From Actinomycetota bacterium (GTDB lineage Bacteria; Actinomycetota; Thermoleophilia; Gaiellales; Gaiellaceae): a stretch of 52,068 nucleotides of DNA. The translations under genes were made by a program, and so were the position numbers. The notes beneath the pieces were generated by a model. It was not told where the DNA came from. It ran no database searches and saw nothing but the letters and a program-made list of their open reading frames with translations. This document shows, piece after piece, positions 25,207 through 45,510 of the stretch (position 1 is the stretch's first letter; each line of letters starts with the position of its first letter). The stretch covers positions 1 to 52,068 of the forward strand of contig PMOB01000033.1 in NCBI GenBank assembly GCA_003161615.1, written 5' to 3'.

Positions 25207-25922
25207 TGGGCGCGCGTCGCCTGATCGGCCGTTATCGCCCGAGCCGAGTCCGCGAGCGTCGGCACATCGAGGAGAGGGTTGCGCTCTCGCAGCGCGTCAG
25301 CGCGATGCTCGACGGCACGGTCGCGCGCGGCCCGTTCGCCGGGATGCGCATGCCAGAGGTACTGCCCGACACGTCCGCGAAGCTGCTCGGCTCCTACGAG
25401 GAGGAGCTGCACCCAACGCTCGAGCGGCTGCTCGGCGGAGACTTCGACGTCGTCGTCAACGTCGGCTGCTCGGACGGCTACTACGCGGTGGGAGCGCTCC
25501 GCCGGCTGAGCGCGGCCCGAGGGGTCGCGTTCGACCTCAACGAGAGCTTCCGGAAGGCGACCGCCGCCACTGCCGCTGCGAATCACGTCGAGTTGAAGAT
25601 CGAGTCGACGTGCTCGCCCGCACGGCTTCGAGAGCTGGCCGGCACATCCCGGGTGCTGGTGATCTGCGACTGCGAAGGCTGCGAGCGCGACCTGATCGAG
25701 CCCGAGACGACGGGGCTCGCGAGCATCGTCGTCGAGCTCCATCCCGGCACCGAGGATCTCGCGCAGCGATACGGCGCCGGCTACGTCGTCACGCTCGTGG
25801 AAAGCACGGGCCGCGATCCGAGTGGCTACCCGGAGCTCGCGACGCTCGCTTCGGAGGAACGTTCCCTCGCGGTGTTCGAGCGGATGGAGCCGCAGACGTG
25901 GGCCGTTATCGAGCCAGCGTGA
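25206..25922 (+). CDS. FkbM-like / class I methyltransferase
   Basis: A 238-residue protein. I take ATG 25206, which overlaps the previous TGA, instead of the open frame to 24891 that lies inside the previous gene. The SAM-binding loop is VVVNVGCSDGYYAVGALRRL (about 79-98), with the ribose-binding acid in VAFDLNESFRKATAA. A later stretch, LVICDCEGCERDLIEPE, resembles the D-x-E-G motif of FkbM-type O-methyltransferases, with two Cys residues added. The last part, ERMEPQTWAVIEPA, overlaps the convergent sulfotransferase-GT4 fusion gene by 17 bases. The methyl acceptor is unknown. Classification as FkbM-like is tentative. Confidence 0.75.
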   Translation: MGARRLIGRYRPSRVRERRHIEERVALSQRVSAMLDGTVARGPFAGMRMPEVLPDTSAKLLGSYEEELHPTLERLLGGDFDVVVNVGCSDGYYAVGALRRLSAARGVAFDLNESFRKATAATAAANHVELKIESTCSPARLRELAGTSRVLVICDCEGCERDLIEPETTGLASIVVELHPGTEDLAQRYGAGYVVTLVESTGRDPSGYPELATLASEERSLAVFERMEPQTWAVIEPA

Positions 25923-27663
25923 GGTAGGCGGCGAGAGTCGCGTCGGCTGTCGCCTCCCAGCTGAACCGCTCGCGCACATGCTCGGCGAGGCCCGGCGTGG
26001 CGCCGGCCTCGAGCGCCTCCTCGACCGCAGTCCGAATCGACCTCCGCTGCGCGGGATCGCAGTACACCGCCAAGTCCCCGAAGTACTCGCGCGTGTCTCC
26101 CCGTGAGGTCGTGACGACCGCGCACCCGCACGCTGCCGCCTCGAGCGACACGAGGCCGGTGGTCTCGAACCACGAGGGAAGGACGTGCACCTTTGCGGTA
26201 CGGAAGAGCTCGGCGAGCTCCTCCTGCGTGAGCACGGATCGGAACTCGACGTTCGGGCCGGCCGCGGCGCGACAACGCTCGGCGTAGCCCGGGTGATGGG
26301 GATGCTCCTCACCGACGAGGGTCAACGGCACTGCGACGCCGCGCAGCGCCTTGATCAGGCCGAGTTGGTTCTTGTGGGGCTCGAGCCGCGCAACGCACAC
26401 GATGCCCTGGCGCTCGACCGGCGTCTCGGGAGACGAGAAGGTGCGGGGGTCGAAGCCGTTGTAGACGACGTGCATCGGGGTCGTCACGTCGAGGGTCGAC
26501 CGGATGCGCAGCGCCTCGCTCTCCGAGTTCGGCAGCAGCAGATCGGCGAGTTCGAGGAGCATCGCTGCCTCCTCGGCGCGCCCGCGAACGCGCGCTGCTG
26601 TCGCGTCGATGCCTCGGCGAACGCTCGAGACGGTCAGGCGCGCCGCTCGGTTGGGCGACCGCAACAGTCGCCCGGCCAGGCCCTGCGCAGCTCCGTACTC
26701 CCAGTAGATCGGCGAAACGACGACCCGCGCCCCGCGCCGTCGCGCCTCACGCAGGACGTCGCGGATGTGCAGCGGAGAGCCGAAGGCGTGCACGATGTCG
26801 TAGCCGGAGACGTCGGCGCCGGCGGCGTTCGCCACCGTGACGTCTACCCCACTCAGCCTCAGGAACTCGGCGGTCTTCTGGGCCTGCATCAGATGGCCGC
26901 CGTGAATCGCTCCCTCCGCCAGCATGAGGACGCGTGGCGACCACTCGGCGGCTGAGACGTGCGAGCCGGCCGGCCGTGGCCTCGCCACCCGGCTGTTGTG
27001 CCACGGAAACGGCTCAGTCGGCGTGTCGACTCCCAGGAACGGACAGAGGCGCTCCCAACCCTCCCCGCTGCAGATGTCGAGGACGAGCAGCTTGTCGGGG
27101 CGGTCTGCGAAGCGCTCGCGAACCGCCTGCTCGTGCGAGCGGCGGACGGCGGCAAAGCGCTCCGCGGCGAAGTCGCTGCTCCCGTAGAGGTGCTTCTCGA
27201 TCGCCGCGGTGTACGCCGAGTGGTCGATGGAACGACCCAGGCGGCGCCGCAGAGGGCCGGTGATGAGCGCCCGCAGTCCGCGATCGAAGCGGCTCCGCCC
27301 AGCGCCGAGGCGCCGGCCCTTGGGATGTCGCTCGGGATCGCCCCAGTACGCCTCGCAGGAACGCAGCCACGACGCCTCGTCGCGGACGGTGAGGATGAAC
27401 TTGGCGTCTGGATACGCCTCGTCGAGCCCCTCGTAGACGCAGCAGATCGGCGTGTCGGAGACAGCGTCGAGGTCGCCGAGCACCGTGAGCTCGAGAGGGC
27501 CGGCAGCCCCTTGGTCGAGGTAACGGATGATCTCTCGCCGCGTGGCCGGATCGGCGGGAAAATGCACGGTGCGGAGGCCGAGCCGGACGAGCGCTGCACC
27601 GAGACTCGCGCCGCCGGTCCTGCTCAGGCCGATCCCGAAGACCTTCTGAGGGGCCACGGACAT
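25906..27663 (-). CDS. Fusion protein: N-terminal sulfotransferase + C-terminal GT4 glycosyltransferase
   Basis: A single 585-residue reading frame with two complete enzymes. Residues 1-226 are a Sulfotransfer_4-like domain. The phosphosulfate loop is GIGLSRTGGASLGAALVRLG (10-29), the 3'-phosphate region KFILTVRDEASWLRS (88-102), and the typical ending GWERLCPFLGV...EPFPWHN (202-223). A short linker follows. Residues 243-585 are a GT4 domain: MLAEGAIHGGHLMQAQKTAE, NGFDPRTF, VCVARLEPHKNQLGLIKAL and the EX7E pair in ETTGLVSLE. ATG 27663 overlaps the upstream GT4's stop by one base (TGATG). It is the last gene of the 12-gene operon. The arrangement suggests sulfation of the sugar that is added, or of the growing chain, by one protein. 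That coupling is inference; domain identification is firm. Confidence 0.88.
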   Translation of the reverse strand: MSVAPQKVFGIGLSRTGGASLGAALVRLGLRTVHFPADPATRREIIRYLDQGAAGPLELTVLGDLDAVSDTPICCVYEGLDEAYPDAKFILTVRDEASWLRSCEAYWGDPERHPKGRRLGAGRSRFDRGLRALITGPLRRRLGRSIDHSAYTAAIEKHLYGSSDFAAERFAAVRRSHEQAVRERFADRPDKLLVLDICSGEGWERLCPFLGVDTPTEPFPWHNSRVARPRPAGSHVSAAEWSPRVLMLAEGAIHGGHLMQAQKTAEFLRLSGVDVTVANAAGADVSGYDIVHAFGSPLHIRDVLREARRRGARVVVSPIYWEYGAAQGLAGRLLRSPNRAARLTVSSVRRGIDATAARVRGRAEEAAMLLELADLLLPNSESEALRIRSTLDVTTPMHVVYNGFDPRTFSSPETPVERQGIVCVARLEPHKNQLGLIKALRGVAVPLTLVGEEHPHHPGYAERCRAAAGPNVEFRSVLTQEELAELFRTAKVHVLPSWFETTGLVSLEAAACGCAVVTTSRGDTREYFGDLAVYCDPAQRRSIRTAVEEALEAGATPGLAEHVRERFSWEATADATLAAYLTLAR

Positions 27664-28709
27664 CAGTCAAGCACCGACTCGTAGAGGGCCGCCGTCGCCA
27701 GCGCGGCGCGCTCCCACGTGTACTCGCGGGCGATCGCGATCCCGCGCTCGCACCGGCGCTCGACGTCCTCGCCGCCTGCGAGCGACTCGAGGAGGCCGAC
27801 GGCGAGAGCTTCCGCTGTCGGCTCGACGAGCAGCGCTCCGTCGCCGCAGACCTCCGGCAGCGCACCGCGGGCGGCGGCGACGACGGGCGTTCCCACGAGC
27901 ATCCCTTCGAGCGCCGGCAGCCCGAACCCCTCGTACAGCGAGGGGACGACGATGACCGCGGCCGTTCGCATTAGCCGCGCGACGAAGGTGGGCTCGCGAA
28001 GCCCGAGAGAGCGGACGCCCGGTTGGCCGTCGAAGAGCTCGTCACGCCGAGAATGCGGCGGGCCACACAACGCAAGGCTCGCGTCGGGGCGGGCCGCGCG
28101 GACCTCTGACCAGGCAGCGGCGAGGACGTCGAGGTTCTTCCGCTTCGTCGCGCCGGCGGCATGAAGGACGAAAGGCCTGCTCAGGCCAATATTTTCCAAC
28201 TCCTCGTCCGGCAAAGGTTCGGCGTCCGCCCGGCCCTGGTCGATCCCGTAGGGGACGACATGGACTGTCTCGACCCCGAGCAGCTCGCGCACCTCGGCGG
28301 CGGCGAACTCCGAGGGGCAGATGACGGCTGCGGCCTCGCGCGCACTGCGCGCAGCCCAACCCGGCAGCGACCCTTCGTCCTCGAAGCGCAGCGGCGGGAG
28401 GTCGTGAATCGTCAGAACCTCGCGCCGCGGCGCCGGCGGGCAGCGCAGGTCGAGCCGGTGCACGAGATCGCTCCGCCCGTAGACCGCGCCGCCGATCAAG
28501 CGTGCGACGCCGAACGGAGCGCCCCAGACGAGCCGGAGCGGCAGTCGCCGCGCGCCGGCGCCGGCCTCCGCGCGGAGCGGCACGATCGCGCGCTCCTGCA
28601 GCGACCAGCCGCCGCCGAGCGCCTCGAGAGCCTTGCGAAGCTCGGTCTCGTAGACCTGCTGGCCCATCGGCGGCGCGGAGCCGTACCGTGCGCAGCAGAC
28701 CGTCCTCAT
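27663..28709 (-). CDS. GT4 family glycosyltransferase
   Basis: A 348-residue GT-B enzyme of the type often annotated as mannosyltransferase. It has GMGQ-like PPMGQQVYETELRKAL near the start, LTIHDLPPLRFEDEG at 99, VPYGIDQGRADAEP at 152, and the donor-domain opening VLHAAGATKRKNLDVLAAAW at 181. The EX7E motif is EGFGLPALE at 260-268. The open frame runs back to 29084 but overlaps the next gene; ATG 28709 sits in an ATGA overlap with that gene's stop and is clearly the start. It probably shares a polycistronic message with its neighbours on both sides. Sugar specificity is unknown. Confidence 0.92.
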   Translation of the reverse strand: MRTVCCARYGSAPPMGQQVYETELRKALEALGGGWSLQERAIVPLRAEAGAGARRLPLRLVWGAPFGVARLIGGAVYGRSDLVHRLDLRCPPAPRREVLTIHDLPPLRFEDEGSLPGWAARSAREAAAVICPSEFAAAEVRELLGVETVHVVPYGIDQGRADAEPLPDEELENIGLSRPFVLHAAGATKRKNLDVLAAAWSEVRAARPDASLALCGPPHSRRDELFDGQPGVRSLGLREPTFVARLMRTAAVIVVPSLYEGFGLPALEGMLVGTPVVAAARGALPEVCGDGALLVEPTAEALAVGLLESLAGGEDVERRCERGIAIAREYTWERAALATAALYESVLD

Positions 28710-29617
28710 CGCGCCGCCTCGACGTGGCGCGCGAGCTCGGTATGGCGATCCCACTGGTGGAGGATCGCGGGCACCGTCCCGTCGGAGTTGAGCACCGCGC
28801 CGTCCGGCGCGGTCTCGTAGGAGCGCATCTTTCCGAGTGTCAGGACCCGGCCGGTGCCGTTCGCGATGACAGTCGCGGGCGAGAGCCGGCCGCGGTGGAG
28901 GAGGTAGTTGTGGATGCCCTGGTCGTGCGACCCGAGCGGCCGGCGGCGGCCCGCGATCTCGGCGGTCATCGCCTGCAGGTAGGCGCGAATCGCGGCGCCG
29001 TCGCCCACGACCGTGCCGGAGCAGGACACCGGCTTGTCCCGCAGCCGCTCGAGCTCGTCGCCGCCGTAGAGACTGCGAATCCAACGGGTGTTGAAGCTGT
29101 CCCGGCCGATCCGCACGGAATCGTCCTCGAGGTACAGCTCGAGCCCGGCGACCGGCTCCGCGAACGGGTCGCGCTGGAAAGCGACGTCACGGAGGTCGGT
29201 GAGCAGAACGCTGTCGGGGTCGGCGTCGAGCGCGGCGAGGTAGCGCTCGTAGTGGGAGTAGCGCAGCGACTGCAGCCCCTCGAGGTGAAACTCCAGGCGG
29301 CGCCGGCGCTCTGAAGAACCGCCTGTGAGCAGGGAAAACGCGGCCGGATAGATGCGCCGGAGACCGCGGGTCGAGCGGAGCCACCTCAGGAGCCGCAGCA
29401 TCGCGGCGGCCGGGCGCGGGTACTCGGCGTCGACATCGACGACTACGTCGGCGAGCTCCCGCAGCCTGTTCTTCTCCTCGTCGTCGCAGCGGCCGGCGAA
29501 GACCACGAACCTCCCGCGAAAGCCGCCGGCGCGAAGCGAGCGCGCGAACGGTTCGATCAGCCGTGCCGGCAGGCCCGTGTAGGCGCCGAGAACGAGAGAG
29601 CGCTCGGTCGAGCTCAC
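28706..29617 (-). CDS. Glycosyltransferase-like protein of unknown specificity
   Basis: A 303-residue protein that I do not place in a named family. It opens with LVLGAYTGLPARLIEPFARS, and then FVVFAGRCDDEEKNRLREL resembles the Rossmann-like start of a GT-A fold. SVLLTDLRDVAFQRDPFAEP near the middle has a T-D-x-R-D pattern like a DxD metal site. RPLGSHDQGIHNYLLHRGRL later resembles the D-Q-x-x-x-N motif found in several GT-A families, including GT77- and GT8-like ones. GTG 29617 overlaps the stop of the GT47-like gene as GTGA, which fixes the start; the frame to 29683 is not needed. Operon context strongly favours a role in glycan assembly. Confidence 0.65.
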   Translation of the reverse strand: MSSTERSLVLGAYTGLPARLIEPFARSLRAGGFRGRFVVFAGRCDDEEKNRLRELADVVVDVDAEYPRPAAAMLRLLRWLRSTRGLRRIYPAAFSLLTGGSSERRRRLEFHLEGLQSLRYSHYERYLAALDADPDSVLLTDLRDVAFQRDPFAEPVAGLELYLEDDSVRIGRDSFNTRWIRSLYGGDELERLRDKPVSCSGTVVGDGAAIRAYLQAMTAEIAGRRRPLGSHDQGIHNYLLHRGRLSPATVIANGTGRVLTLGKMRSYETAPDGAVLNSDGTVPAILHQWDRHTELARHVEAAR

Positions 29618-30558
29618 GACCGCGCCGACGCCCGCTCGCGGAAGGCGCGCGCCGCGGCCCGCCATGTCCGCCACCGCAGCCAAGGGCTGACCGGTCCGAT
29701 TCCGCCCTCGGCGCGGATCTCACCGCAGAGCTCGACGACGCGATGGAACCAGACGTCGGGCGCGAACCACTCGTCGTAGACGGAGCCGGCTCCAGCACTC
29801 AGCCGCGGCCAATCCGCCTCGAGCTCCTCGAGACGCTCGCCCAGCGCACGTACGTCGGCCTCGCGAACCCGGACCGAGCAATCTTCCCAGTCGATGCCCG
29901 CGGGTGGAACCCAGTCGTCGCTGATCACCACCGGCACCCGCCCCGCCGCGAGCGTCTCGAAGAGCCGGATCGTGGCCGTGCCCGCGCCGCGCGGACAGAG
30001 GACGAACTTCGATCGGCCGACGACATCCACGTACCTCGCACGCGCCTCCTCGAGCCCGGCGGCCGGCCGGCCGAAGAAGTCGAGCGCCGAGGTGTCCTCG
30101 AGGATCGCACGCGGATGCTGCAGGGCGAGAACGTGCTCCCGCACTCGGCCCCCACGCCGTCCCTGAAAGGAGAAGAGCAGGTCGGGCGTCCGGTCACGCG
30201 CCGCTCGTGTGTCGGCGACGAGCCGGAAGTAGCCGAACGCGCGCTGGCGGCGCGGGTCGAAGGCGCGCCTCGGCATCGCGACGTAGACGCCGGGAAGCAC
30301 GTCGCGCGGAAAGTCCCGCTCGTCGTAGACGAACGCCTTCTCCGGATAGGCCCGGACGAGCTCGTGGCTCCTCAGCATCGCCATCGCCCAGTCCGACGGG
30401 TACTGGTGCGCGTCGACGAAGAGGATGACGTCGGCGTCCTCCGGCTCGGCGACGACCTGATGAACGCCGAAGCGGTCGCGCGCGGCCAGCTCGTCCCACT
30501 CGGCGCGAAGGCGCTTGCTCCACGCCGCGTCGATCCCGGTGGCGATCAGAACCTTCAC
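29614..30558 (-). CDS. Exostosin-like (GT47-type) glycosyltransferase
   Basis: A 314-residue protein starting with GTG (MKVLIATGIDAAWSKRLRAE). The diagnostic part is the C-terminal donor-binding core FVLCPRGAGTATIRLFETLA followed by GRVPVVISDDWVPPAGIDW, the signature of the exostosin family (PF03016). SFQGRRGGRVREHVL upstream also matches. GT47 enzymes are inverting; animal and plant members transfer GlcA, Gal, Xyl or Ara, and bacterial ones are sparsely studied. It is four bases from the GT2 gene upstream and overlaps the gene downstream by four. It is probably cytoplasmic, as there is no signal anchor of the eukaryotic kind. Confidence 0.85.
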   Translation of the reverse strand: MKVLIATGIDAAWSKRLRAEWDELAARDRFGVHQVVAEPEDADVILFVDAHQYPSDWAMAMLRSHELVRAYPEKAFVYDERDFPRDVLPGVYVAMPRRAFDPRRQRAFGYFRLVADTRAARDRTPDLLFSFQGRRGGRVREHVLALQHPRAILEDTSALDFFGRPAAGLEEARARYVDVVGRSKFVLCPRGAGTATIRLFETLAAGRVPVVISDDWVPPAGIDWEDCSVRVREADVRALGERLEELEADWPRLSAGAGSVYDEWFAPDVWFHRVVELCGEIRAEGGIGPVSPWLRWRTWRAAARAFRERASARS

Positions 30559-30562
30559 CGGC

Positions 30563-31537
30563 TCACCACGTGAGCGGCTCCCGGACGATCCGCGGCAACG
30601 GATAGCCGCGCACGTATCGCCAAAGATGAGCCAGGAGCCGGCCCGACCGGTCGTACGCCTCGCGCAGGTGCCGCTCGCGGAGCGCCGTCAGGGCCTCGCC
30701 GCGCCGCTGCCGCGCCATCATCGCCTGGTACGCGCGCCAGCCCTGCCGCGCGCGTCGCTGCTGGCCCGGCGAGTTCTCCGGCGAGTGGAAGGCGATGCAG
30801 CGGACACGCCAGGCCTGAAGCGGTGTCGTCGGCCGCGCGCCCTGGTTCGCGTCGTGCCGGCGGTAGAGGAGGATCACATCGTTGACGAAGGCGAGGTCGC
30901 CGAAGCGGCTGAGCCGGATGAGCATGTCCCAATCCTCCGGCCCTGCGAGGGACTCGTCGAACCGACCGGCGCGCTCGTAGACGTCCCGGCGGGCGAGGAG
31001 GAGGCCCGGCGGGAAGAGAACGTTGCCGTTGACGAGGACGTCGAACGTCGTCGGGCGGTCGAGCGGCCAGCGGACGAGCCTTCGCCCCTCGAGGCCGAGC
31101 CGGTTTCGTCCCGCTTCCGCGTACTCGCCCGGCGCGTAGCGCGTTCCCTCGGCGTCGACGAGCTCGGCGAGGCCGTGGCATCCGGCGAGCCGGTCGTCCT
31201 GTTCCAGCCGCTCGAGCAGCGTCGCGAAGGCATGCGGAAGCCAGGCGTCGTCACTGTCCATGAAGGTCACGTAGCTCGTCCCTCGGACGCTGGCGCGGAA
31301 GCCCTCGTTGCGGGCGTGCGACGAGCCGCCGTGGTCGACCTGGAGCGCTCGGAAGCGAGCGTCCCGCTCGGCAAAGCCGCTCGCGATCGCGAACGTCGTG
31401 TCGGTCGAGCCGTCGTCGACGACGACGCATTCCCACCGTTCCTCCGTCTGCGCGGTGAGGCTCTCGAGCGTCTCGCCGAGGAAGCGCGCCGCGTTGTAGG
31501 CGGGCACGACGACCGAGATCAGCGGACGTGCGGTCAC
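30563..31537 (-). CDS. GT2 family glycosyltransferase
   Basis: A 324-residue GT-A enzyme: PLISVVVPAYNAARFLGETL, CVVVDDGSTDTTFAIA, the metal site TFMDSDDAWLPHAFATLL at about 93, and GPEDWDMLIRLSRFGDLAFV near 190. GTG 31537 is preceded at six bases by GGAG and gives MTARPLISVVVPAY. The open frame to 31798 overlaps the next gene and is rejected. The C-terminal 100 residues (GWRAYQAMMARQRRGEALTA) are helical and basic, perhaps for membrane contact. It lies 13 bases after the upstream GT2. The likely role is chain extension of the lipid-linked unit. Confidence 0.91.
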   Translation of the reverse strand: MTARPLISVVVPAYNAARFLGETLESLTAQTEERWECVVVDDGSTDTTFAIASGFAERDARFRALQVDHGGSSHARNEGFRASVRGTSYVTFMDSDDAWLPHAFATLLERLEQDDRLAGCHGLAELVDAEGTRYAPGEYAEAGRNRLGLEGRRLVRWPLDRPTTFDVLVNGNVLFPPGLLLARRDVYERAGRFDESLAGPEDWDMLIRLSRFGDLAFVNDVILLYRRHDANQGARPTTPLQAWRVRCIAFHSPENSPGQQRRARQGWRAYQAMMARQRRGEALTALRERHLREAYDRSGRLLAHLWRYVRGYPLPRIVREPLTW

Positions 31538-31550
31538 GCGCTGCTCCAGC

Positions 31551-32399
31551 TCAGTGACGCGCAGCCGCGACGCGGCACGGGCCGCGCAGGTAGATGAGCA
31601 GCCGCCGAGCGGCGCCCGCGCGGCGCGGCCGAGGCAGGACGATCGCGCGAACGGCTGCGCCCGCGACGACGGCCAGGCGGTAGAGCAGCCAGCCGCTCGA
31701 GCCGTACCACTTGCGGATGTAGATCTCCTGCGCGGAGTAGAACAGCCGCTCGCGCCGCGAAGGATCCTCGCTCGTCGCGCCGCCGACATGGGTCGCAACG
31801 ACGTCCGGGCGGACGACGGGATGCCAGCCGAGCTCGTGAGCCCTCCGCTCCCAGTCGGTCTCCTCGGAGTAGAGGAAGAAACGCTCGTCGAACAAGCCGA
31901 CCTCCTGCAGCGCCTCCCAGCGGAGCAGCAGGATCGTGGCTACCGCGAACTGCGGATGCCGGTCGAGGCGCGCGAGACCGATCGCCTCGAGCCACGCCTG
32001 CGCCGGGGACGGGAAGGGCCAGAGCACGCGCTGCGCGGAGCCTGTCGTGTAGTTGATCGCGGGAGCAACGGCGGCGGCGCGCTCGTCGGCCGCCAGCGTC
32101 TCCGCCAACTTGGCGATCGCGCCCTGCGGGAGGACGGAGTCCGGATTGAGCAGGAGGACGTCGCATGGCTCGCCGTCGAGAATCTCACGCAGAGCGGCGT
32201 TGACGCCGGCCCCGAAGCCGAGGTTGCCGGTCGTGCGGAGATAGCGCGCGCCTCGCCGTTCGCACACCGCCGCGACCGCGTCGCTTTGCGAGTTGTCGAC
32301 GACGGTGACGGGCGCCTCTCCTCGGACGCTCTCGAGCGCACGGTCGAGCGCGTCTTCCCCGTTGTAGGCAACGACTACGACGTGCACGGGGCGATTCAC
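31551..32399 (-). CDS. GT2 family glycosyltransferase (WbbL/rhamnosyltransferase-like)
   Basis: A 282-residue protein with the compact layout of WbbL-type rhamnosyltransferases. It has VHVVVVAYNGEDALDRALES, VTVVDNSQSDAVAAVCE, GNLGFGAGVNAALRE (about 58), the DxD-like LLLNPDSVLPQGAIAKLAE, and FDERFFLYSEETDWERRAHE (about 172) with the catalytic acidic pair. Enzymes with NLGFGxGxN and E-E/D-D-W motifs commonly use dTDP-rhamnose. That would fit the rmlA/C/D genes at the right end, but the match is by resemblance only. GTG 32399 overlaps the polymerase stop as GTGA. The C-terminus is a short hydrophobic/basic tail. Confidence 0.88.
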   Translation of the reverse strand: MNRPVHVVVVAYNGEDALDRALESVRGEAPVTVVDNSQSDAVAAVCERRGARYLRTTGNLGFGAGVNAALREILDGEPCDVLLLNPDSVLPQGAIAKLAETLAADERAAAVAPAINYTTGSAQRVLWPFPSPAQAWLEAIGLARLDRHPQFAVATILLLRWEALQEVGLFDERFFLYSEETDWERRAHELGWHPVVRPDVVATHVGGATSEDPSRRERLFYSAQEIYIRKWYGSSGWLLYRLAVVAGAAVRAIVLPRPRRAGAARRLLIYLRGPCRVAAARH

Positions 32400-33700
32400 G
32401 TGGCCGCCGCCTCCCCCTCGCGGCTCTGCCAGGCGAGCGCGCAGACCATGCCGGCGAGGAGCCAGCTGAGCACCGGTGTCCCTCGCACCCAGTACTCGTC
32501 GACGAGGCCGTGCGTGGTCGTCGCAATGAGGATCGCGACGGCCGCAGGAGCGAGCTCGACCCGTCTCAAGCGGACGAGCGCGTATCCCGTTCCGAGGATC
32601 AGCAGGATGAAGCTCCCGGCGAAGACCCAGCCTCCTTCGGCCGCTTGCAGGAGCAGGACGTTGTGCGGATCGTCGGTGGGAGTGAGGCGGTCAGCAGCCA
32701 CGACTGCGCCATACGACCCGACGCCGATCCCGAGCCACGGATGAGCGCGGATGATGTGGAGCGCGTCCCGCTGGTATTCCTGCCGGAAGCGGATGTTGTA
32801 GGCCCCATGACTCTTCCCCTGCGACCCGTACGTCGTGACGAAGGACTGCGCGGTCGATGGGAGGAGCTCGAAGGAAAGGCCGGCGATCGCCGCGATCGCG
32901 AGCCCCGTCGCAATCGCCTGGCGCGGCGAGTGCATCCAGCGGAACGCCAGAAGGATCACCACGCCGACCGCACACGCTAGGAGCGCCCCGCGACTCTCCG
33001 TCGCGAACACCCCGTAGACGAGGAGCGGCACGAGGATGCGATAACGGCTCAGTCGCGGCACGCCGACGAGCAGCAGGATCGCGTTGGCGACGAACTGCCC
33101 CGCCGGATTCTTCTGGAGGCCAAGCGAGTCGAAGGGGAAGACGACCGCAACCACCGTGGCGGCAACGAGGTATGCCTTGAGAACGCGGATGTGGACGCCG
33201 CGCAGGACGAGGTAGCTGCCGACGACGAGCGGAAAGGCGATCAACTCGTAGCGCTGGAACGTCTGACCGACAGGCTGGAAGCCGGGGTGGTGTGCGAAGA
33301 GCAGGACCAGCACGAAGACGCAGTACTGCAGCGCCGGCCACCGGACGGCCCGAAGCGCCCCAAACACGGCGGCATTGCGCTCGAGGACGGCTGCTCCGGT
33401 CGCCGACAGGACGAGCAGCAGCAGGAGCATGTCCCCGAGCCCGATATGCAGGCCGACGTGCCCACTTGCGATCGTCTGCACGGCCGGGATCGAGATGCCC
33501 AACGCGACGGCTGCCGCGCGCGGTCTGACGGCGAGCCAGATTGCGAAGAGCGCCGCCACCGGTAGCAGCGCGTAGAAGGGGTTCTTCCCGACGAGGAGCC
33601 CGACCGCGGCTGCGGCGAGAGCGCCGATGGCGACATCGCGACCTGCACGGCCGACATCGGCGGCCTTCGGACGCCGTGCCGACCAGGCGTACGCGCTCAT
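32396..33700 (-). CDS. O-antigen polymerase/ligase-like membrane protein (Wzy/WaaL type)
   Basis: A 434-residue polytopic membrane protein with about ten or more hydrophobic segments, starting around GALAAAAVGLLVGKNPFYAL. It has the long periplasmic-type loop of the Wzy_C/WaaL family in the second half (SFVTTYGSQGKSHGAYNIRF), followed by HPWLGIGVGSYGAV and the family-like DDPHNVLLLQAAEGGWVFA with its conserved H-N. Such proteins join lipid-linked repeat units into polymer, or ligate a glycan to an acceptor, outside the membrane. ATG 33700 (MSAYAWSARRPKAAD) is chosen over the Arg-rich extension to 33808, which overlaps the kinase gene. It sits directly after the Wzz/BY-kinase gene, as expected for Wzy-dependent polymerisation. 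Confidence 0.88.
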   Translation of the reverse strand: MSAYAWSARRPKAADVGRAGRDVAIGALAAAAVGLLVGKNPFYALLPVAALFAIWLAVRPRAAAVALGISIPAVQTIASGHVGLHIGLGDMLLLLLVLSATGAAVLERNAAVFGALRAVRWPALQYCVFVLVLLFAHHPGFQPVGQTFQRYELIAFPLVVGSYLVLRGVHIRVLKAYLVAATVVAVVFPFDSLGLQKNPAGQFVANAILLLVGVPRLSRYRILVPLLVYGVFATESRGALLACAVGVVILLAFRWMHSPRQAIATGLAIAAIAGLSFELLPSTAQSFVTTYGSQGKSHGAYNIRFRQEYQRDALHIIRAHPWLGIGVGSYGAVVAADRLTPTDDPHNVLLLQAAEGGWVFAGSFILLILGTGYALVRLRRVELAPAAVAILIATTTHGLVDEYWVRGTPVLSWLLAGMVCALAWQSREGEAAAT

Positions 33701-33728
33701 CCCAGGCGGATGCGAAGAGCGGTCACCG

Positions 33729-35345
33729 TCACGCCTTCGCCGCCTTGGCGGGAGCGGCACCGCGCGCGTACGTATACGCGCCGTAGCCGTAGCCGTAGCC
33801 CGCCTCATCGACGCTGACGCCGGTGATCACGACGCCGAGCGGATGCGCCGGCATCGTGTCGAGCATCCGCCTCAGCCGGGTCAGTTCGGGGCGCCGGGCC
33901 ACATCCATCTTCACCGCGAGGATGACGGCGTCGACCTTCGCGCTGAGCGCGAGGCCATCGCCGACGTGGAAAAGCGGCGGGGCGTCGATGAGCACGAGAT
34001 CGCCGCGAGCCCGCAGCGTGTCGAGGAGGTTCGACAGCGGACGCGACGCGACGAACTCGCCCGGGTTGGGAGGAGTCAGGCCGAGCGCGAGGACGCTGAG
34101 CGGCGCGGCGCGATCGCTGGACGCCGACAGACCATTGCCACCCGGCTCGCTCGCGCTGTTTCCGTTCGGACCAGCAGTGCCGTTGCTGTCGCCACGGAAG
34201 TCGAACTCCGCGAGCGCCTCGTCAAGCGAGGCGTGCCCGAGCACGACTTCCGCCAGACCGGGCCGGCCGGCAACCGGGAAGAACCGGTGCAGCATCGGCC
34301 GGCGCAGGTCGAGGTCGACGAGCGTTACCGGCCGCCCGAGCCGTGCGAAGGCGACCGCAAGGTTGGCGATGGTCGTCGACTTCCCCTCTTCCTCAATCGC
34401 GCTCGTGATCATCACCGTCCGGATGTCGCGGTCGAGCATCGCGAACTCGAGGTTCGTGCGGAGCATCCGGAATGCCTCGGCTCCAGGCCCGGTCGGGTCA
34501 TCGATCATCGCGAGCTTCCCTCCGCCCTGCAACGCCTTCGGAGGCTCCGGGAGCCGCGCCAGAAGCGGCAGGCCGAGCCGCTCCTCGATGACGTCGACCG
34601 AGCGCACGCGGGTGTCGAGCGCGTCGAGGAGGAACGCGAGCCCGAGCCCGAGGACGAGCCCGAGGACGAATCCGAGCGCGACGTTGCGCTTCGTCGGCGG
34701 CCGCAACGTCGCGGCGCCGGTCGCGACCTGGAAGACTCGCGCGTCGGCGACGTGGAGCGCCTGAGCGGCGTCGACCTGCTGCAGTTCGGCCGCGAGCGCG
34801 ACGCGACCGGCTCCGCGGGGTGTCGCCTTGAGCCGCGCCTCGAGCGTCCTTGCCGTCGCTTTCAGACCGGAGGTGTCGCTCGCGTAGCGGTAATTGACGT
34901 AGGCGTGGGCGTAGGCGTTCGCGATCCGCGGCGCGGACGCCGCGTCGGAAGTGGTTGCGGTAGTGGTCACGATGCTTCCGGACGGATCGAATCCGAGGCC
35001 TGTCTCGGCGAGGAACTCACCGGGCGAGATCCCGAGATGTCCGTGCGAGATGGCGAGCTCGGCAACCGGGGTCGAGCGGGCGAGCAACGTCTGGGTGTCG
35101 ATCGTGTTCGGGATCACCGGCTGCACAAAGGAGTTCGACGACGTCGATGTCGTCGCAGTCGTCGGGGTGAGCAGGAGAACCTCCGCAGCTGCGAAGTAAT
35201 GCGTCGCCTCCCGCGCAGTGAAGACGTAGGCGACGGCCGGCGCGACGATGACCGCCGCGAGCACGAGCCACTTGCGCCGCCACAGCAGCTGCAGGTAGGC
35301 GCGGACCGTGACGGTGCCTTGCGTGGAGCTGTCGAAGGCGGTCAT
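33729..35345 (-). CDS. Wzz-type chain-length protein fused to BY-family tyrosine kinase
   Basis: A 538-residue protein. Two membrane helices (about 26-43 and 222-244) flank an extracytoplasmic Wzz region. The cytoplasmic BY-kinase follows: Walker A SAIEEEGKSTT (315-325), Walker A' TLVDLDLRRP (341-350), Walker B DLVLIDAPPL (449-458). A Gly/Asn/Ser-rich insert (about 384-413) interrupts the kinase between Walker A' and B. The C-terminus ends with five tyrosines in YGYGYGAYTY, then an Ala/Lys tail: the autophosphorylation cluster. Phosphorylation cycles of such proteins set chain length and export of capsule or EPS. The partner phosphatase is likely the PHP protein at 39758. The gene lies between a GT4 and the polymerase in the 12-gene operon. 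Confidence 0.93.
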   Translation of the reverse strand: MTAFDSSTQGTVTVRAYLQLLWRRKWLVLAAVIVAPAVAYVFTAREATHYFAAAEVLLLTPTTATTSTSSNSFVQPVIPNTIDTQTLLARSTPVAELAISHGHLGISPGEFLAETGLGFDPSGSIVTTTATTSDAASAPRIANAYAHAYVNYRYASDTSGLKATARTLEARLKATPRGAGRVALAAELQQVDAAQALHVADARVFQVATGAATLRPPTKRNVALGFVLGLVLGLGLAFLLDALDTRVRSVDVIEERLGLPLLARLPEPPKALQGGGKLAMIDDPTGPGAEAFRMLRTNLEFAMLDRDIRTVMITSAIEEEGKSTTIANLAVAFARLGRPVTLVDLDLRRPMLHRFFPVAGRPGLAEVVLGHASLDEALAEFDFRGDSNGTAGPNGNSASEPGGNGLSASSDRAAPLSVLALGLTPPNPGEFVASRPLSNLLDTLRARGDLVLIDAPPLFHVGDGLALSAKVDAVILAVKMDVARRPELTRLRRMLDTMPAHPLGVVITGVSVDEAGYGYGYGAYTYARGAAPAKAAKA

Positions 35346-38180: not shown

Positions 38181-39662
38181 TCAAGAATCGCGCGCGCCAC
38201 GCGCGAACAGGAACGGCGCCGTGCGGAGGATCAACGCGATGTCGCGGCCGAGCGACCACGATGTGATGTAGCGGTAGTCGAGCTTGACCATGTCCTCGAA
38301 CTCGATCGAGTCGCTGCCCAGTACCTGCCAGAGGCCGGTCATGCCCGGGCGCAGGTCGAGGCGCTTCGTCGCCCAGTCGCCGACCCAGCGGTGCTCCTCG
38401 GGAATGAGCGGCCGCGGCCCGACGAGCGACATCTCCGCCCGGAGAACGTTGATGAGCTGCGGCAGCTCGTCGAAGTGGCGCCGGCGGAGCCAGCGCCCGA
38501 CGCTGGTCACGCGCGGGTCCCCGTCGATCTTGAACATCCGGGGATCGCGCTGGTGCTTGTTCAGGTGGGCGACCTCGTTCTTCCTCTCGTCCGCGTCGAT
38601 CACCATCGTCCGGAACTTCCAGATCACGAACGGAGTCCCACGGCCACCGATCCGCACCTGCCGGAAGAACACCGGGCCTCGAGAGGTGAGCTTGATCGCG
38701 AGAGCGATCAGCGCGAAAAGCGGCGAGAGCACGATGAGCAAGAAGACGGAGCCGAGCACGTCGATCGTCCGCTTCAACAGCAGCGAGGCACGGCCGATGC
38801 GGGGCGGCCGCAAGCCGAGCACGGGGATGCCCTCGAGGTCGTGGACGTCGATGCCCGGGTCGAGGACATCGAAGAAACGGGTCAGGATGTCGAGCTGCAC
38901 GCCGTGCGCTGTGAGCCTGCGGATCGCGCCGACGAGGTGATCGCGCTCGTGATCCGGGAAGGCGAGGATCACGCGGCGGACGCCGAGGCGTTTCACGATC
39001 TCCTCGAGCTCGCCGATGTCGCCGAGCAGCGGCAGGTGCTCGAGCTCCTGCGGACGCTCCAGCGAGTCGTTCGGGTCGTCCGCGAAGCCGAGCACCCTCA
39101 ACCCGTACTCGGGATGCAACGCCAGCTTCTGGGCGATGACCTGTCCGGCCACGTCCGTGCCGACGATGATCGTGTTCTGCACGTAGAGGGGATGACGGCG
39201 ACAGATGGCTCGCGCGACGGTCCGTAACGTCGACATGAAGACGATCGCGAACAGCCAGCACATGATGATCTTCGTCCGGTCGTTGCTGTCCCTCCCGATC
39301 GTCCACGTGAAGAGGAAGGCGAGCCAGGCGCCGACGGTGAGCGTGCTGACGAGGCGCGGCAGATCTTCGGAGCTCGTGTGATCGACCCTGTCGCCGTCAC
39401 GGTCGTATAGGCCGGCGACGACGGCTACAAGGACCCAGGCCGGTGGCGCGAGGAAGTAGAGCGCGGCACCGGGATCCCAGCGTCCCCAGACGGTCTCTGC
39501 GATCGCGAAGGCGACGAGCAGGCCGGTAATGTCGGCGATCGCCAGAGCGCGCCGCAGCAGCCAACCGCGATTCCGGTCGCCTCGGACGCTCGGGGAATGG
39601 CCGAGCCGGAGCTTCGCCTCGACGACCAGTGCGCCGTCGAGCGTTTGTCCTTCAGTACTCAT
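38181..39662 (-). CDS. Polyprenyl-phosphate glycosyl-1-phosphate transferase (priming enzyme)
   Basis: A 493-residue membrane protein of the WbaP/WcaJ group. The first 150 residues hold several transmembrane helices, then a CoA-binding-like Rossmann domain (TIIVGTDVAGQVIAQKLAL). The C-terminal Bac_transf catalytic domain starts at LLKRTIDVLGSVFLLIVLSP. Its catalytic features are intact: FRQVRIGGRGTPFVIWKFRT, DELPQLINVLRAEMSLVGPR with the essential D-E, and RPGMTGLWQVLG. It should transfer a sugar phosphate to undecaprenyl phosphate and so start the repeat unit. It is the first gene of the 12-gene minus operon, 95 bases from the divergent phosphatase gene. Which sugar it uses is not predictable. 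Confidence 0.94.
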   Translation of the reverse strand: MSTEGQTLDGALVVEAKLRLGHSPSVRGDRNRGWLLRRALAIADITGLLVAFAIAETVWGRWDPGAALYFLAPPAWVLVAVVAGLYDRDGDRVDHTSSEDLPRLVSTLTVGAWLAFLFTWTIGRDSNDRTKIIMCWLFAIVFMSTLRTVARAICRRHPLYVQNTIIVGTDVAGQVIAQKLALHPEYGLRVLGFADDPNDSLERPQELEHLPLLGDIGELEEIVKRLGVRRVILAFPDHERDHLVGAIRRLTAHGVQLDILTRFFDVLDPGIDVHDLEGIPVLGLRPPRIGRASLLLKRTIDVLGSVFLLIVLSPLFALIALAIKLTSRGPVFFRQVRIGGRGTPFVIWKFRTMVIDADERKNEVAHLNKHQRDPRMFKIDGDPRVTSVGRWLRRRHFDELPQLINVLRAEMSLVGPRPLIPEEHRWVGDWATKRLDLRPGMTGLWQVLGSDSIEFEDMVKLDYRYITSWSLGRDIALILRTAPFLFARGARDS

Positions 39663-41450: not shown

Positions 41451-42134
41451 GTGGAAGCCTGTCCGGCGGAGAGGCTCGGCCGTCGCTCCGTCCACGTCTG
41501 GCTGTTTGCGCTCGCCGACGTCGCCGAAGACGAGCTGTCACCGATCGACGAGGCCGAGCGCGCCAGAGCGGACGGCTTCGCGTTCGAGGAGGACAGGCGC
41601 CGATTTCTGGCCGGGCGGGCCTGCCTCCGCAGCGTCTGCAGCCGATACGTGGCCGACCCCGCCGAGCCCTTCAGCAGCCTCTCCCACAGCGGCGACCTGA
41701 TCGCAGTCGCCGTCGCCCGGCGTGAGGTCGGGATCGACGTCGAGCAGCTCCGCGGGATCGAGCCCGAGCCCGCGCTCGTCACCCGCGCCTGTACGGCCGC
41801 GCAGCGGAGCCGGCTTGAGCGGGTCGCTCCCGAAGAACGTGAGCGGTTGTTCCTCGCGCAGTGGGTGCGGAAAGAAGCCGTAGGCAAGGCGCTCGGCGTC
41901 GGGCTCGACCTTGCCCTGTCTCCTACGAAGGTCACGGCGTTTCCGCGCGCCGGCGGTCGCCGATACCGCGGAATCTGGCGCGTCTTGGAGATAGAGACGC
42001 CGGAGGGCTATGCCGGCGCGGTCGCCGCCCGCGGGGTTGCCGCGCGGCTCGTCGTTCGCCGCAGCCCCTCGATCTCCGGGATCAACACCGCGGCAACCTT
42101 CCGCATGCCGGCTTCCGTCGCCAGTTCGAAGTGA
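41451..42134 (+). CDS. 4'-phosphopantetheinyl transferase (Sfp type)
   Basis: A 227-residue enzyme that moves phosphopantetheine from CoA to a carrier-domain serine. The Sfp motifs are present: SSLSHSGDLIAVAVA (about 75-89, CoA-binding SHS), VGIDVEQL (93-100, Mg2+-binding D96 and E98) and FLAQWVRKEAVGKALG (134-149) with the W-x-x-K-E-A catalytic part. GTG 41451 gives the usual family length. The obvious target is S544 of the NRPS-like protein encoded tail-to-tail on the other strand. The last 42 codons and stop overlap that gene's 3' end by 127 bases. From about residue 205 the chain (RRSPSISGINTAATF) is antisense to the thioesterase end and may be dispensable. Confidence 0.9.
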   Translation: MEACPAERLGRRSVHVWLFALADVAEDELSPIDEAERARADGFAFEEDRRRFLAGRACLRSVCSRYVADPAEPFSSLSHSGDLIAVAVARREVGIDVEQLRGIEPEPALVTRACTAAQRSRLERVAPEERERLFLAQWVRKEAVGKALGVGLDLALSPTKVTAFPRAGGRRYRGIWRVLEIETPEGYAGAVAARGVAARLVVRRSPSISGINTAATFRMPASVASSK

Positions 42135-44644
42135 CGACCGCCGATCGGAACCTGCTTGGCCGGAGCGGTCAGGAAGCGGTCCCATGGTTCGGCCGGGAAG
42201 GTGCTCGGATCGCACCTCAACACCGTCAGCGGGCCGTCGTAGCGGCTGTCCGGCAGATACGAGTCGAGCAGTCCTCCGTAGATGCGCATCGCGAACGTGG
42301 CTCGAAGCGCGAGCGGCACCGCAGGCCCTCCTGCGGTAGCCGCGCGCATGAGCTCGTCGTCGGCTGCCTGACGCGCACGGGCTCGGCGATCGCTTCCGCT
42401 CACGAACGCCGCGCTGCGGCGGGCACGGAAGGCGAGCTGGCGAGCCGCGAGGCGCAGGGCGTAGCGGGCAGCTGCGGCGGCCGGCATCTCTCGCAGCTCG
42501 CTGGCGCGCGCGGCCGCCCGTTCGCGCAACCCGAACCCAGGGGGCACCGAGTCGCCGAGCAGGAGTACCGGCACGTCCTCGCCGGCGCGCCGGAGCTGCC
42601 GGGCCATCTCGAAGCCGATCGTGCCGCCGGAAGACGCCCCATACAGGAGGTACGGCCCGTGCGGTCGCACCGTGCGGATCGCGGCGACGTAGCTTCCGGC
42701 AAGCTCCTCGATCGAGCGCTCGGGAATCCCCCGGCCTTCGAGCGCCTGGCCGAGTAGGCCGTAGATCGGGAAGCCGTCCGGGAGCAAAGTCGAGAGAAGG
42801 CGTGTGTGGACGACCTCCCCGTAGACGTCGTGCACGACGAAGAGCGGCGGCCCGGAGCCCTCGCTGCGCGCCGTGACGAGCGGCGACGGGGCGGAGCCTG
42901 TCTCGAGGAGAGCAGCCAGCTGGCGGACGGTCGGCGCCTCGACGAGCACGGAGACCGGCAGGTCGACGGCGAGCTCCTCGTTCATGCCGATGATTACGCG
43001 CGCCCCGCGCAGCGAGTCGCCGCCGACCGTGAAGAAGTCGTCCTCCACGCCGAGGCCCTCGGACCCGAGGACTTCCTGCCAGCGCCGCAGGATCCGCTCC
43101 TCGAGCTCGGTCTCCGGCGGCGCCGACGACTCGCCCGCAAGCCTGCGAGCGACCGGAAGCCGCAGCCGATCGACCTTGCCGCCGGGCAGACGGGGCAGCT
43201 CGTCGAGGACGGCGATTCCGTCCGGAAGCAGCGGCGCAGGCAGACGCCGCGTCAGCTCGACGCGAAGCGCGCTCGGATGCAGTGACTTCCCCTGGACGGG
43301 AACGACGGAGGCGGTGAGGCGAAGCTCGCCCGCCTCGTCGACGTAGGTCGTGGCGGCGGCGTCCGCCACACCGTCGAGTTGACGCAACGTCGCCTCGAGA
43401 TGTCCCAGCTCGACCCGGTTGCCGGCGATCTTCACCATGTGGTCGGCGCGCCCGCGGTACTCGATGTTGCCGTCGGGCAGCAGCCGGCCGAGATCGCCGG
43501 TGCGAACCCGGCGCAGGCCGTCGCCGAGCTCGGTGAACGTCTGCGCCGTCTCCTCGGGGCGCTTCCAGTACCCCAGTGACGTCTCTCGGCTCGTCACGAC
43601 GATCTCGCCCGGCTCACCCGGCGGCACGGGCTGTCCTTCCTCGTCGACGAGCTCGACCAGCTTTCCCGGGAACGGCACGCCTAGGGGAAGCGCCCCTGTT
43701 CCGAGCTCCGTGCCCACGTCGATGACGTAGTGGAGGACGCCGCCGGCCTCCGTGCCGCTGTAGAGGTTGATTATCTGGACGTTTGGCGCCAGGTGGCGCC
43801 TGATTTCTGCGACGTCTTCCCACGTCGAGGCCTCGCCGCTGAGGTAGAAGGTTGTCGCGCCGATGAGCTCGTTCGGACCGAGGGCGGCCATGATGTGCCG
43901 CACGAGCGTCGGAACACCGCCGAAGTTGAAGGTGTTCATCGAACGCAGCCACTCTGGTATCCCGGTCAGACCGTCGCGCCGGATCTCGTACGCAGCGATG
44001 GTCGCGCCTGTCCCGATGTACGTCTCGAGGCTGAGGACGGTCGCATTGTTGGAGCCGATCGCGATCACCGCGGCACGCGGGAACTCCTGCGCAGCATGGA
44101 GGTCGCCGGTGAGCATGCTGGCGTAGTTCCGCTGCGCCATGACGATGCCCTTCGGCTCTCCGGTCGAGCCTGACGTGAACGCGATCGACACGTACTCGCC
44201 CGGCGGGACGTCCGCCCAGTCGGTAGGCGGCTCGGCAACGAGATCGAGCGGATTGATCGCCTCGACGCCCGCCTCTGACTCGGCGAGGTCGGTCAAGATC
44301 GCCGTTGCTTCGACGTCGGCGGCCACTCGGCGGACGTGCTCGGCCGGCGCAGTTGGATCGATCGGGACGGTCACCATTCCGGCCCGACCGACCGCCAGCG
44401 ACGCGATCAGCACCGCCCTCGTGCTCTCGATCTGGAGCATGACGTGGTGGCGGCCGGAACCGAGCCGGTCGACGAGCGCGGCCGCGACGCTCGCCGTCGC
44501 CGCGTCGAGCTCGGCGTAGGTCATACGGTCGTCGCCGACCTCGAGCGCCAATCTGTCCGGATCGCTAGCCGCGATCTCCCGCAGCACCTCGGACGCGGCG
44601 GCTTCCCCCTGGACTGCCACGCGCGGAACCCTAGCGCTGGTCAC
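42008..44644 (-). CDS. NRPS-like enzyme: adenylation - carrier - thioesterase (A-PCP-TE)
   Basis: An 878-residue single-module enzyme without a condensation domain. The adenylation domain (about 20-500) has A3 FTSGSTGEPKG (156-166), A5 NLYSGTEAG (293-301), A7 RTGDLGR (381-387), A8 GRADHMVKIAGNRVE and A10 LPGGKVD with Lys490. Where A4 normally reads FDxSV, I align NNATV (199-203), so the Asp that holds the amino group of amino acids seems absent. The carrier domain has DDFFTVGGDSL with Ser544 for phosphopantetheine. The thioesterase (about 590-860) has the GASSG elbow (Ser671) and GGRHFEL for the catalytic His. GTG 44644 overlaps the stop of the free thioesterase gene as GTGA. A-PCP-TE enzymes such as RalA-type synthetases act on alpha-keto or hydroxy acids. 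The product here is unknown. Confidence 0.92.
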   Translation of the reverse strand: MTSARVPRVAVQGEAAASEVLREIAASDPDRLALEVGDDRMTYAELDAATASVAAALVDRLGSGRHHVMLQIESTRAVLIASLAVGRAGMVTVPIDPTAPAEHVRRVAADVEATAILTDLAESEAGVEAINPLDLVAEPPTDWADVPPGEYVSIAFTSGSTGEPKGIVMAQRNYASMLTGDLHAAQEFPRAAVIAIGSNNATVLSLETYIGTGATIAAYEIRRDGLTGIPEWLRSMNTFNFGGVPTLVRHIMAALGPNELIGATTFYLSGEASTWEDVAEIRRHLAPNVQIINLYSGTEAGGVLHYVIDVGTELGTGALPLGVPFPGKLVELVDEEGQPVPPGEPGEIVVTSRETSLGYWKRPEETAQTFTELGDGLRRVRTGDLGRLLPDGNIEYRGRADHMVKIAGNRVELGHLEATLRQLDGVADAAATTYVDEAGELRLTASVVPVQGKSLHPSALRVELTRRLPAPLLPDGIAVLDELPRLPGGKVDRLRLPVARRLAGESSAPPETELEERILRRWQEVLGSEGLGVEDDFFTVGGDSLRGARVIIGMNEELAVDLPVSVLVEAPTVRQLAALLETGSAPSPLVTARSEGSGPPLFVVHDVYGEVVHTRLLSTLLPDGFPIYGLLGQALEGRGIPERSIEELAGSYVAAIRTVRPHGPYLLYGASSGGTIGFEMARQLRRAGEDVPVLLLGDSVPPGFGLRERAAARASELREMPAAAAARYALRLAARQLAFRARRSAAFVSGSDRRARARQAADDELMRAATAGGPAVPLALRATFAMRIYGGLLDSYLPDSRYDGPLTVLRCDPSTFPAEPWDRFLTAPAKQVPIGGRHFELATEAGMRKVAAVLIPEIEGLRRTTSRAATPRAATAPA

Positions 44645-45510
44645 CCGTTTGCAGCGAGCCCGATCTCGGTTGTCAGCACGGCGGCAACCTCCCGGACGGC
44701 TGCCTCGGTCCCGAGGTCGATGTGGCGACGGCTAACGGGAACCTGCTTGGCCGGGCTGGTCACGTAGCGGTTCCAGGGCTCCACCGGAAGCCTGCTCTCG
44801 GGGCAACGCAAGACGGTAAGCGGGCCGTCGTACGGGCTGTCCGGCTTGTACGCGACGGTCATCCAGCCGTACACGAGCACCGCGAAACTGGTTCTGAGTG
44901 CGGGCGGCACCGCGGTCCCGCCTTTGGCGGCCGCCTGCATGAGCTCGTTGTCGGCGGCTCGACGGGCCCGGTCGCTGCGAACGTCCCCGGTCACCCGTGC
45001 CGACACTCGATGGGCGCGGAAGGCGAGTTGGCGGGCGGCGATGCGCAGCACGTAGCGGCTCGCCGCGCCGACCGGCAGCTCCTTCAGCTCGCGCGCTCGG
45101 GCAGCCGCCCGCTCGCTGCGACCCCACTTCATCGGAGTACCCGGAGCGATGCTGTCACCGAGCACGAGGACAGGCACGTCCTCGCCGGCGCGGCGGAGCT
45201 GCCGCGCTATCTCGAAGGCGATCGTGCCGCCGGCCGAAGCCCCGTACAGGCGGTACGGCCCGTGCGGGCTGACAGTTCGCATGGCCGCGGCGTAGCGTCC
45301 GGCGAGCTCCTCAATCGAACGCTCCGGAATCATTCGGCCCTGAAGCGCCTGGCCGCGTAGGCCGTAGATCGGGAAGCCTTCGGGGAGCAGCGTCGCAAGC
45401 AGACGGGTGTACACGACCTCCCCACCGACGTCATGCACCACGAAGAGCGGCGGCTCGGAGCCCTCGCTGCGCGCGAGGACGAGTGGCGACCAGGTAGCGG
45501 CGCCGTCCAT
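44641..45510 (-). CDS. Stand-alone alpha/beta-hydrolase thioesterase, paralogue of the NRPS-like TE domain
   Basis: A 289-residue thioesterase that is a full-length copy of the C-terminal domain of the next gene. SPLVLARSEGSEPPLFVVHD at its start matches the linker and first strand after the carrier domain there, so the copy begins just after the PCP boundary. The nucleophile elbow is YGASAGGTIAFE (Ser92) and the His region SRRHIDLGTEA near 266. The lid segment with ERAAARARELKELP is also shared. It could offload, proofread (type II TE) or act as an acyltransferase on the same carrier. It lies four bases after the ABC exporter stop and overlaps the NRPS-like start, so expression is tightly coupled. 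Confidence 0.9.
   Translation of the reverse strand: MDGAATWSPLVLARSEGSEPPLFVVHDVGGEVVYTRLLATLLPEGFPIYGLRGQALQGRMIPERSIEELAGRYAAAMRTVSPHGPYRLYGASAGGTIAFEIARQLRRAGEDVPVLVLGDSIAPGTPMKWGRSERAAARARELKELPVGAASRYVLRIAARQLAFRAHRVSARVTGDVRSDRARRAADNELMQAAAKGGTAVPPALRTSFAVLVYGWMTVAYKPDSPYDGPLTVLRCPESRLPVEPWNRYVTSPAKQVPVSRRHIDLGTEAAVREVAAVLTTEIGLAANG

Follow-up and report, generated by a model that had tools for sequence, protein, structure and literature searches.

A predicted Sulfotransfer_4-GT4 fusion protein in an actinobacterial polysaccharide locus

The fusion gene and its surroundings

The window, which is the whole stretch of analysed DNA with a length of 52,068 nucleotides, carries a minus-strand frame in which a Sulfotransfer_4 domain is followed by a GT4-type glycosyltransferase domain (Table 1). 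This fusion is the last gene of a minus-strand run that holds GT4, GT47, two GT2, Wzy_C, and Wzc-like genes. Further GT4 genes follow beyond the Wzc-like gene, as does the gene for an initiating sugar transferase, and the opposite flank of the fusion comprises methyltransferase, GT4, and GT2 genes. By their gene content, the surroundings are a putative Wzy-type exopolysaccharide locus. The Pfam scan, which covered part of the genes of the window, detected no Wzx flippase. The polysaccharide locus is adjoined by genes for an AMP-binding/PP-binding/thioesterase protein, a second thioesterase, and a 4′-phosphopantetheinyl transferase (42008-45510, minus strand, and 41451-42134, plus strand).

Table 1. 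Features of the fusion gene and of the run of polysaccharide genes, in window positions.
Feature	Position	Strand	Basis or remark
Fusion ORF, Sulfotransfer_4 + GT4	25906..27663	-	585 aa, open frame
Sulfotransfer_4 domain, residues 7-225	26989..27645	-	Pfam E 9.2e-39; AlphaFold model of residues 1-238
Donor (5′-phosphosulfate) loop, residues 12-21 GLSRTGGASL, Thr to Gly at 18	27601..27630	-	Alignment of relatives
Linker, residues 227-243	26935..26985	-	pLDDT <50 at 224-236, weak coding signal
GT4-type GT-B domain, residues 244-585	25909..26934	-	Pfam PF00534/PF13692, fold match, standalone relatives
EX7E motif, E500 and E508	26140..26166	-	Both Glu invariant in 10 relatives
TGATG, overlap of upstream GT4 stop and fusion start	27661..27665	-	Sequence
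Upstream GT4 gene, start MRTVCC, translationally coupled to fusion	27663..28709	-	Stop/start overlap
325-aa gene within the glycosyltransferase run, no Pfam or NCBIfam match	28706..29683	-	
GT47 exostosin-like glycosyltransferase	29614..30558	-	
GT2 glycosyltransferase, frame start uncertain	30563..31798	-	
GT2 glycosyltransferase	31551..32399	-	
Wzy_C O-antigen ligase/polymerase	32396..33808	-	PF04932
Polysaccharide co-polymerase/tyrosine autokinase-like (Wzc-like)	33729..35345	-	TIGR01007 above cut-off
Initiating sugar transferase (Bac_transf)	38181..39662	-	PF02397

The 585-codon frame contains neither an internal stop nor a frameshift. The source DNA has a GC content of 68.6%, GC3 is high along the whole frame, and all long blocks of both domains have their best coding score in the fusion frame when compared with the other five frames. 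The Pfam coverage, the open 585 codons, and the coding signal in the same frame bear out the earlier note, which had described a complete Sulfotransfer_4 and a complete GT4 domain in one frame. The A of the fusion's ATG is also the last base of the stop codon that ends the upstream GT4 gene. At the junction, ten full-length standalone GT4 relatives open with M(K/R)V where the fusion has SPRVLML (residues 242-248), and residue 243, which is aligned to the Met of the standalone proteins, is Pro (codon CCA). Judged from the sequence, the joint lies at the natural borders of both domains, which some 17 linker residues connect.

Two separate genes could look fused if a miscalled base hid a stop in the linker, which is rated as very unlikely. 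The locus is known from one assembly only, and linker codons 227-246 (n = 20) have no clear coding signal when taken alone, several of them being one base off a stop. In contrast, both halves share one frame, and the natural GT start has no start codon. The only in-frame candidate starts close by, GTG226 and ATG247, lack a preceding Shine-Dalgarno-like sequence, and a frameshift alone would be an insufficient explanation. A missed stop or frameshift between residues 225 and 245, which the earlier note had named as a possible refutation, has left no positive sign. A frameshift or a hidden second start was rejected as the main reading on frame, coding-signal, and start-site evidence.

The two domains and their active sites

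The sulfotransferase half matches Sulfotransfer_4 (PF17784) in Pfam with 133.9 bits against a curated cut-off of 22.8, and covers profile positions 1-212 of 215. A review refers to Sulfotransfer_4 as the S. mansoni type (PMC11625862). Residues 1-238 modelled alone with AlphaFold reach a pLDDT of 81.5 and a pTM of 0.80. The model resembles SgdX2 (8y9p; Z 21.7, 187 aligned residues, rmsd 3.4), Cpz8 with PAP (9kf2; Z 21.1), and the schistosome sulfotransferases (Z about 20). Matches to tyrosylprotein sulfotransferases (Z 12.6) and kinases (about 10) are far below those to the Sulfotransfer_4 members. The full-length AlphaFold model, based on 30 sequences, has a mean pLDDT of 82.5. Its pTM of 0.64 and the linker pLDDT below 50 indicate that the placement of the domains relative to each other is not confidently predicted.

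G12, T16, D70, P72, R94, W99, S102, and N223 are invariant in alignment A3 (21 sequences), including the fusion. D70 is the conserved Asp, and R94 and S102 are taken to form the 3′-phosphate site, roles that are presumed from the SULT enzymes. The donor loop of the fusion reads RTGGAS, whereas the Sulfotransfer_4 relatives have RTGT. R15, T16, G17, and S20 are retained, but residue 18 is Gly in the fusion and Thr in all relatives that cover the column of the HMM alignment (76/76). The counts for the sulfotransferase half come from alignment A3 and the HMM alignment. In alignments A1 and A2, a few sequences had their sulfotransferase C terminus or GT4 N terminus wrongly placed, and A2 was used solely for the full-length model and the GT4 motif counts.

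The KSGTT loop of cytosolic sulfotransferases binds the 5′-phosphosulfate of PAPS (PMC11677658), and by analogy the Thr that the relatives have in place of Gly18 is expected to touch the donor phosphate. Without it, the fusion may bind the donor less tightly. Backbone amides do part of the donor phosphate binding in the sulfotransferase fold, so the loss may also be tolerated. On this reading of the loop, Gly18 is the main doubt about a sulfating activity of the fusion. It would lower the activity claim and leave the Sulfotransfer_4 assignment intact, since the assignment is based on profile and fold. The earlier note had credited each domain with its own active-site motifs. This holds for the GT4 half with its EX7E motif, and for the sulfotransferase half in part, the Thr of RTGT being replaced. 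A degenerate PAPS site, the other refutation that it had foreseen, is hinted at by one loop substitution absent from the 76 relatives, while the other conserved residues are intact.

The C-terminal half has a Glycos_transf_1 match in Pfam at residues 413-554 (E 1.3e-17), and the GT fold spans residues 240-585. In VIA-align, residues 240-585 match 6kih_A with Z 32.2 over 318 residues (rmsd 2.7), MshA with Z 30.6, and BshA with Z about 30. Full-length standalone GT4 relatives (n = 10), including Mucilaginibacter, Sediminibacterium, Puia, and Geomonas, have 36-40% identity. K431 and the DTRExFG block are invariant with respect to these ten relatives, and R426 lies within VARLEPHK. A characterised GT4 equivalog with known donor and acceptor was not found, as no NCBIfam equivalog reaches its cut-off.

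Relatives, distribution, and PAPS supply

In a tree of 45 sulfotransferase domains, the fusion groups with the standalone L010 from the same genus (support 97/93), and both fall within a clade with L124, L003, and L039 (support 100/99), the inner order of the tree being unsure due to long branches. All of these relatives are separate genes. L010/L139 adjoins GT2, nucleotide-sugar epimerase, and C-methyltransferase genes, and L124/L138 adjoins GT2 and two Sulfotransfer_3 genes. L003/L140 has GT2 and carbamoyltransferase genes nearby, and L039 lies between ABC exporter and sugar aminotransferase genes, together with GT2 and a Sulfotransfer_2 gene. Members of the clade occupy glycan loci in four further places examined, one of them elsewhere in the fusion's own genome and the others in three different genomes. 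The occurrence of these separate genes in glycan settings supports a glycan as the probable substrate of the clade. The short contig of L138 (G545:C69), on which a Sulfotransfer_4 gene, a GT2 gene, and two genes of Sulfotransfer_3 type stand side by side, is a candidate sulfated-glycan locus in itself.

In many standalone Sulfotransfer_4 proteins of the phylum (L109-L127, mostly of family f23), the C terminus consists of a hydrophobic stretch and then Arg-rich residues, which on sequence grounds resembles a membrane anchor. The GT domain of the fusion sits where these proteins have the hydrophobic, Arg-rich C terminus.

Six proteins of family f10, which belongs to the class of the fusion, have an N-terminal Sulfotransfer_4 domain and a type III PKS or KAS III-like domain (L080, L084, L086, L087 at 1908-3683 on the plus strand, L088, and L089, from genomes G314, G387, G241, G189, G345, and G171). 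Only L087 is confirmed by Pfam. A separate Sulfotransfer_4 gene adjoins the PKS-like fusion in most cases. In caprazamycin biosynthesis, Cpz8 sulfates triketide pyrones, which then donate the sulfate (PMC4257720), and the pathway requires a type III PKS (PMC4257720 and its reference 41). By analogy, the f10 proteins look like a fused aryl-sulfate-donor pathway.

The earlier note had proposed a search for the same domain order in databases. Overlapping samples of 399 class, 396 phylum, 129 order, and 103 family genomes contain no second Sulfotransfer_4-GT4 fusion, even though Sulfotransfer_4 is found in many genomes. No plasmid record covers 80% of the fusion protein, and phages have no match to it. 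In the class sample, Sulfotransfer_4 frames of at least 450 aa were checked for a GT4 half. Other long frames with Sulfotransfer_4 in the class were rejected as GT4 fusions. Most of them merely gain length because open reading continues upstream in GC-rich DNA, and those with long C-terminal tails are fusions to a type III PKS-like domain. The class sample has one full-length standalone relative of the GT4 half (G146, 39% identity), and its contig carries no Sulfotransfer_4 gene. No sulfotransferase lies near two Bacteroidota/Geomonas GT4 relatives, and polysaccharide genes are present in both neighbourhoods. The two domains were not seen as neighbouring genes in any of the relatives' loci examined. 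The lack of a second fusion in the samples and of a sulfotransferase near the GT4 relatives makes the fusion look recent and local.

As for the supply of PAPS, an APS kinase start (GLSGSGKST) lies at the edge of contig C1 (G000:C1:1-57), where the gene runs off the contig. ATP sulfurylase, searched for as Sat and CysD, was not found in the assembly. In two congeners, the next frame after cysC is cysD-like, and the longer of the two loci also shows a cysN-like frame behind it, as read from the translations. Since the cysD-like frame comes right after cysC in these congeners, the missing Sat/CysD-type genes may be in the same assembly gap as the remainder of the APS kinase gene. A PAPS supply is plausible for the organism, its genes being incompletely assembled. 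A contig end interrupts the APS kinase gene at the same position in two congeners (G000:C1:1-57 and G002:C23:4-60); perhaps repeated cysC copies break the assembly.

Interpretation and comparison with known systems

There is about an even chance that the fusion is a genuine two-domain protein of one predicted sulfated-glycan (Wzy-type exopolysaccharide) pathway. In the cytoplasm, the C-terminal GT-B domain would extend a lipid-linked oligosaccharide by a sugar taken from a nucleotide donor. Its fold, EX7E motif, and neighbourhood are observed, and the donor and acceptor are presumed. The N-terminal Sulfotransfer_4 domain would use PAPS to sulfate a hydroxyl group, either on that glycan or on a precursor within its pathway, a role suggested by the family, the residence of the clade in glycan loci, and the fusion itself. 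Most likely, the fusion ties two steps of this pathway to each other at a constant stoichiometry. A narrower form of this reading, in which one polypeptide adds a sugar to the lipid-linked oligosaccharide and sulfates the same residue from PAPS with a loop that works without the family Thr, is tentative and leans towards the doubtful. The earlier note had suggested such a coupling of sulfation to sugar addition, which would go beyond the shared glycan pathway that the exopolysaccharide setting and the glycan loci of the sulfotransferase relatives support. In none of the other genomes sampled was the fusion seen, nor the two domains as neighbours, so genome comparison gives no proof of a pathway common to both partners. 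We know of no sulfated polysaccharides shown in the organism group of the fusion.

It is somewhat unlikely that the sulfotransferase half is catalytically dead and now acts as a binding or regulatory module, the protein being in effect a GT4 enzyme with a decayed partner. The replacement of Thr by Gly in the phosphosulfate loop is unique to the fusion, the domain diverges strongly from other members (best identity 43%), and the missing ATP sulfurylase would fit such decay. However, every other invariant residue of the family alignment is retained, including the Arg, Thr16, and Gly17 of the loop, the uninterrupted frame scores as coding just as strongly here as in the GT half, and an APS kinase is present at the contig edge. 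Both domains could also be active on different molecules, with the sulfotransferase acting on another repeat-unit sugar or precursor and the fusion setting expression and location only. The genes of the relatives are separate and non-neighbouring in every case, and the GT4 relatives (Bacteroidota, Geomonas, and the one class member) lack a Sulfotransfer_4 gene nearby, which is consistent with this option. In contrast, the PKS-like fusions of the same class, together with the need of the Cpz8 pathway for a type III PKS, suggest that Sulfotransfer_4 fusions can join consecutive steps, and activity on different molecules is considered improbable.

Documented cases of sulfated polysaccharides in bacteria are few, and most sulfotransferases have yet to be assigned to a particular step. 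If both domains work in one sulfated-glycan pathway, the fusion suggests two candidate steps, both open to assay with a single purified protein. It also brings Sulfotransfer_4, whose solved members act on small molecules, into consideration as a family that may sulfate polysaccharides, given the glycan loci of the clade around its domain.

SgdX2 (8y9p), Cpz8 (9kf1/9kf2), and the Schistosoma sulfotransferase (4mua) belong to the family of the sulfotransferase half, match its fold (Z about 20-22), and share most of the invariant residues. In contrast, they are single-domain proteins with small-molecule substrates, while the fusion has RTGG in place of RTGT and an attached GT-B domain. MshA, BshA, HepE, SenB, and the Mucilaginibacter and Geomonas standalone proteins have the GT-B fold and EX7E in common with the fusion. 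Unlike the fusion, none of the GT4 members examined has an N-terminal sulfotransferase, and the N-terminal GT4 loop is GGH in the fusion compared to GGD in GT4 enzymes. The f10 proteins resemble the fusion in having an N-terminal Sulfotransfer_4 in a two-domain protein, but their partner is ketosynthase-like and their sulfotransferase is from another clade. The xss locus for sulfated exopolysaccharide (synechan) of Synechocystis (PMC8205485) and the predicted wps-1 sulfated exopolysaccharide locus of Actinoplanes (PMC13390465) are similar to the fusion locus as Wzx/Wzy-type loci with glycosyltransferases and sulfotransferases. In both, the sulfotransferases belong to other families and are encoded on their own. 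No report of a bacterial sulfotransferase-glycosyltransferase fusion was found in the open-licence literature; the parts of the fusion are known, and their combination appears to be new.
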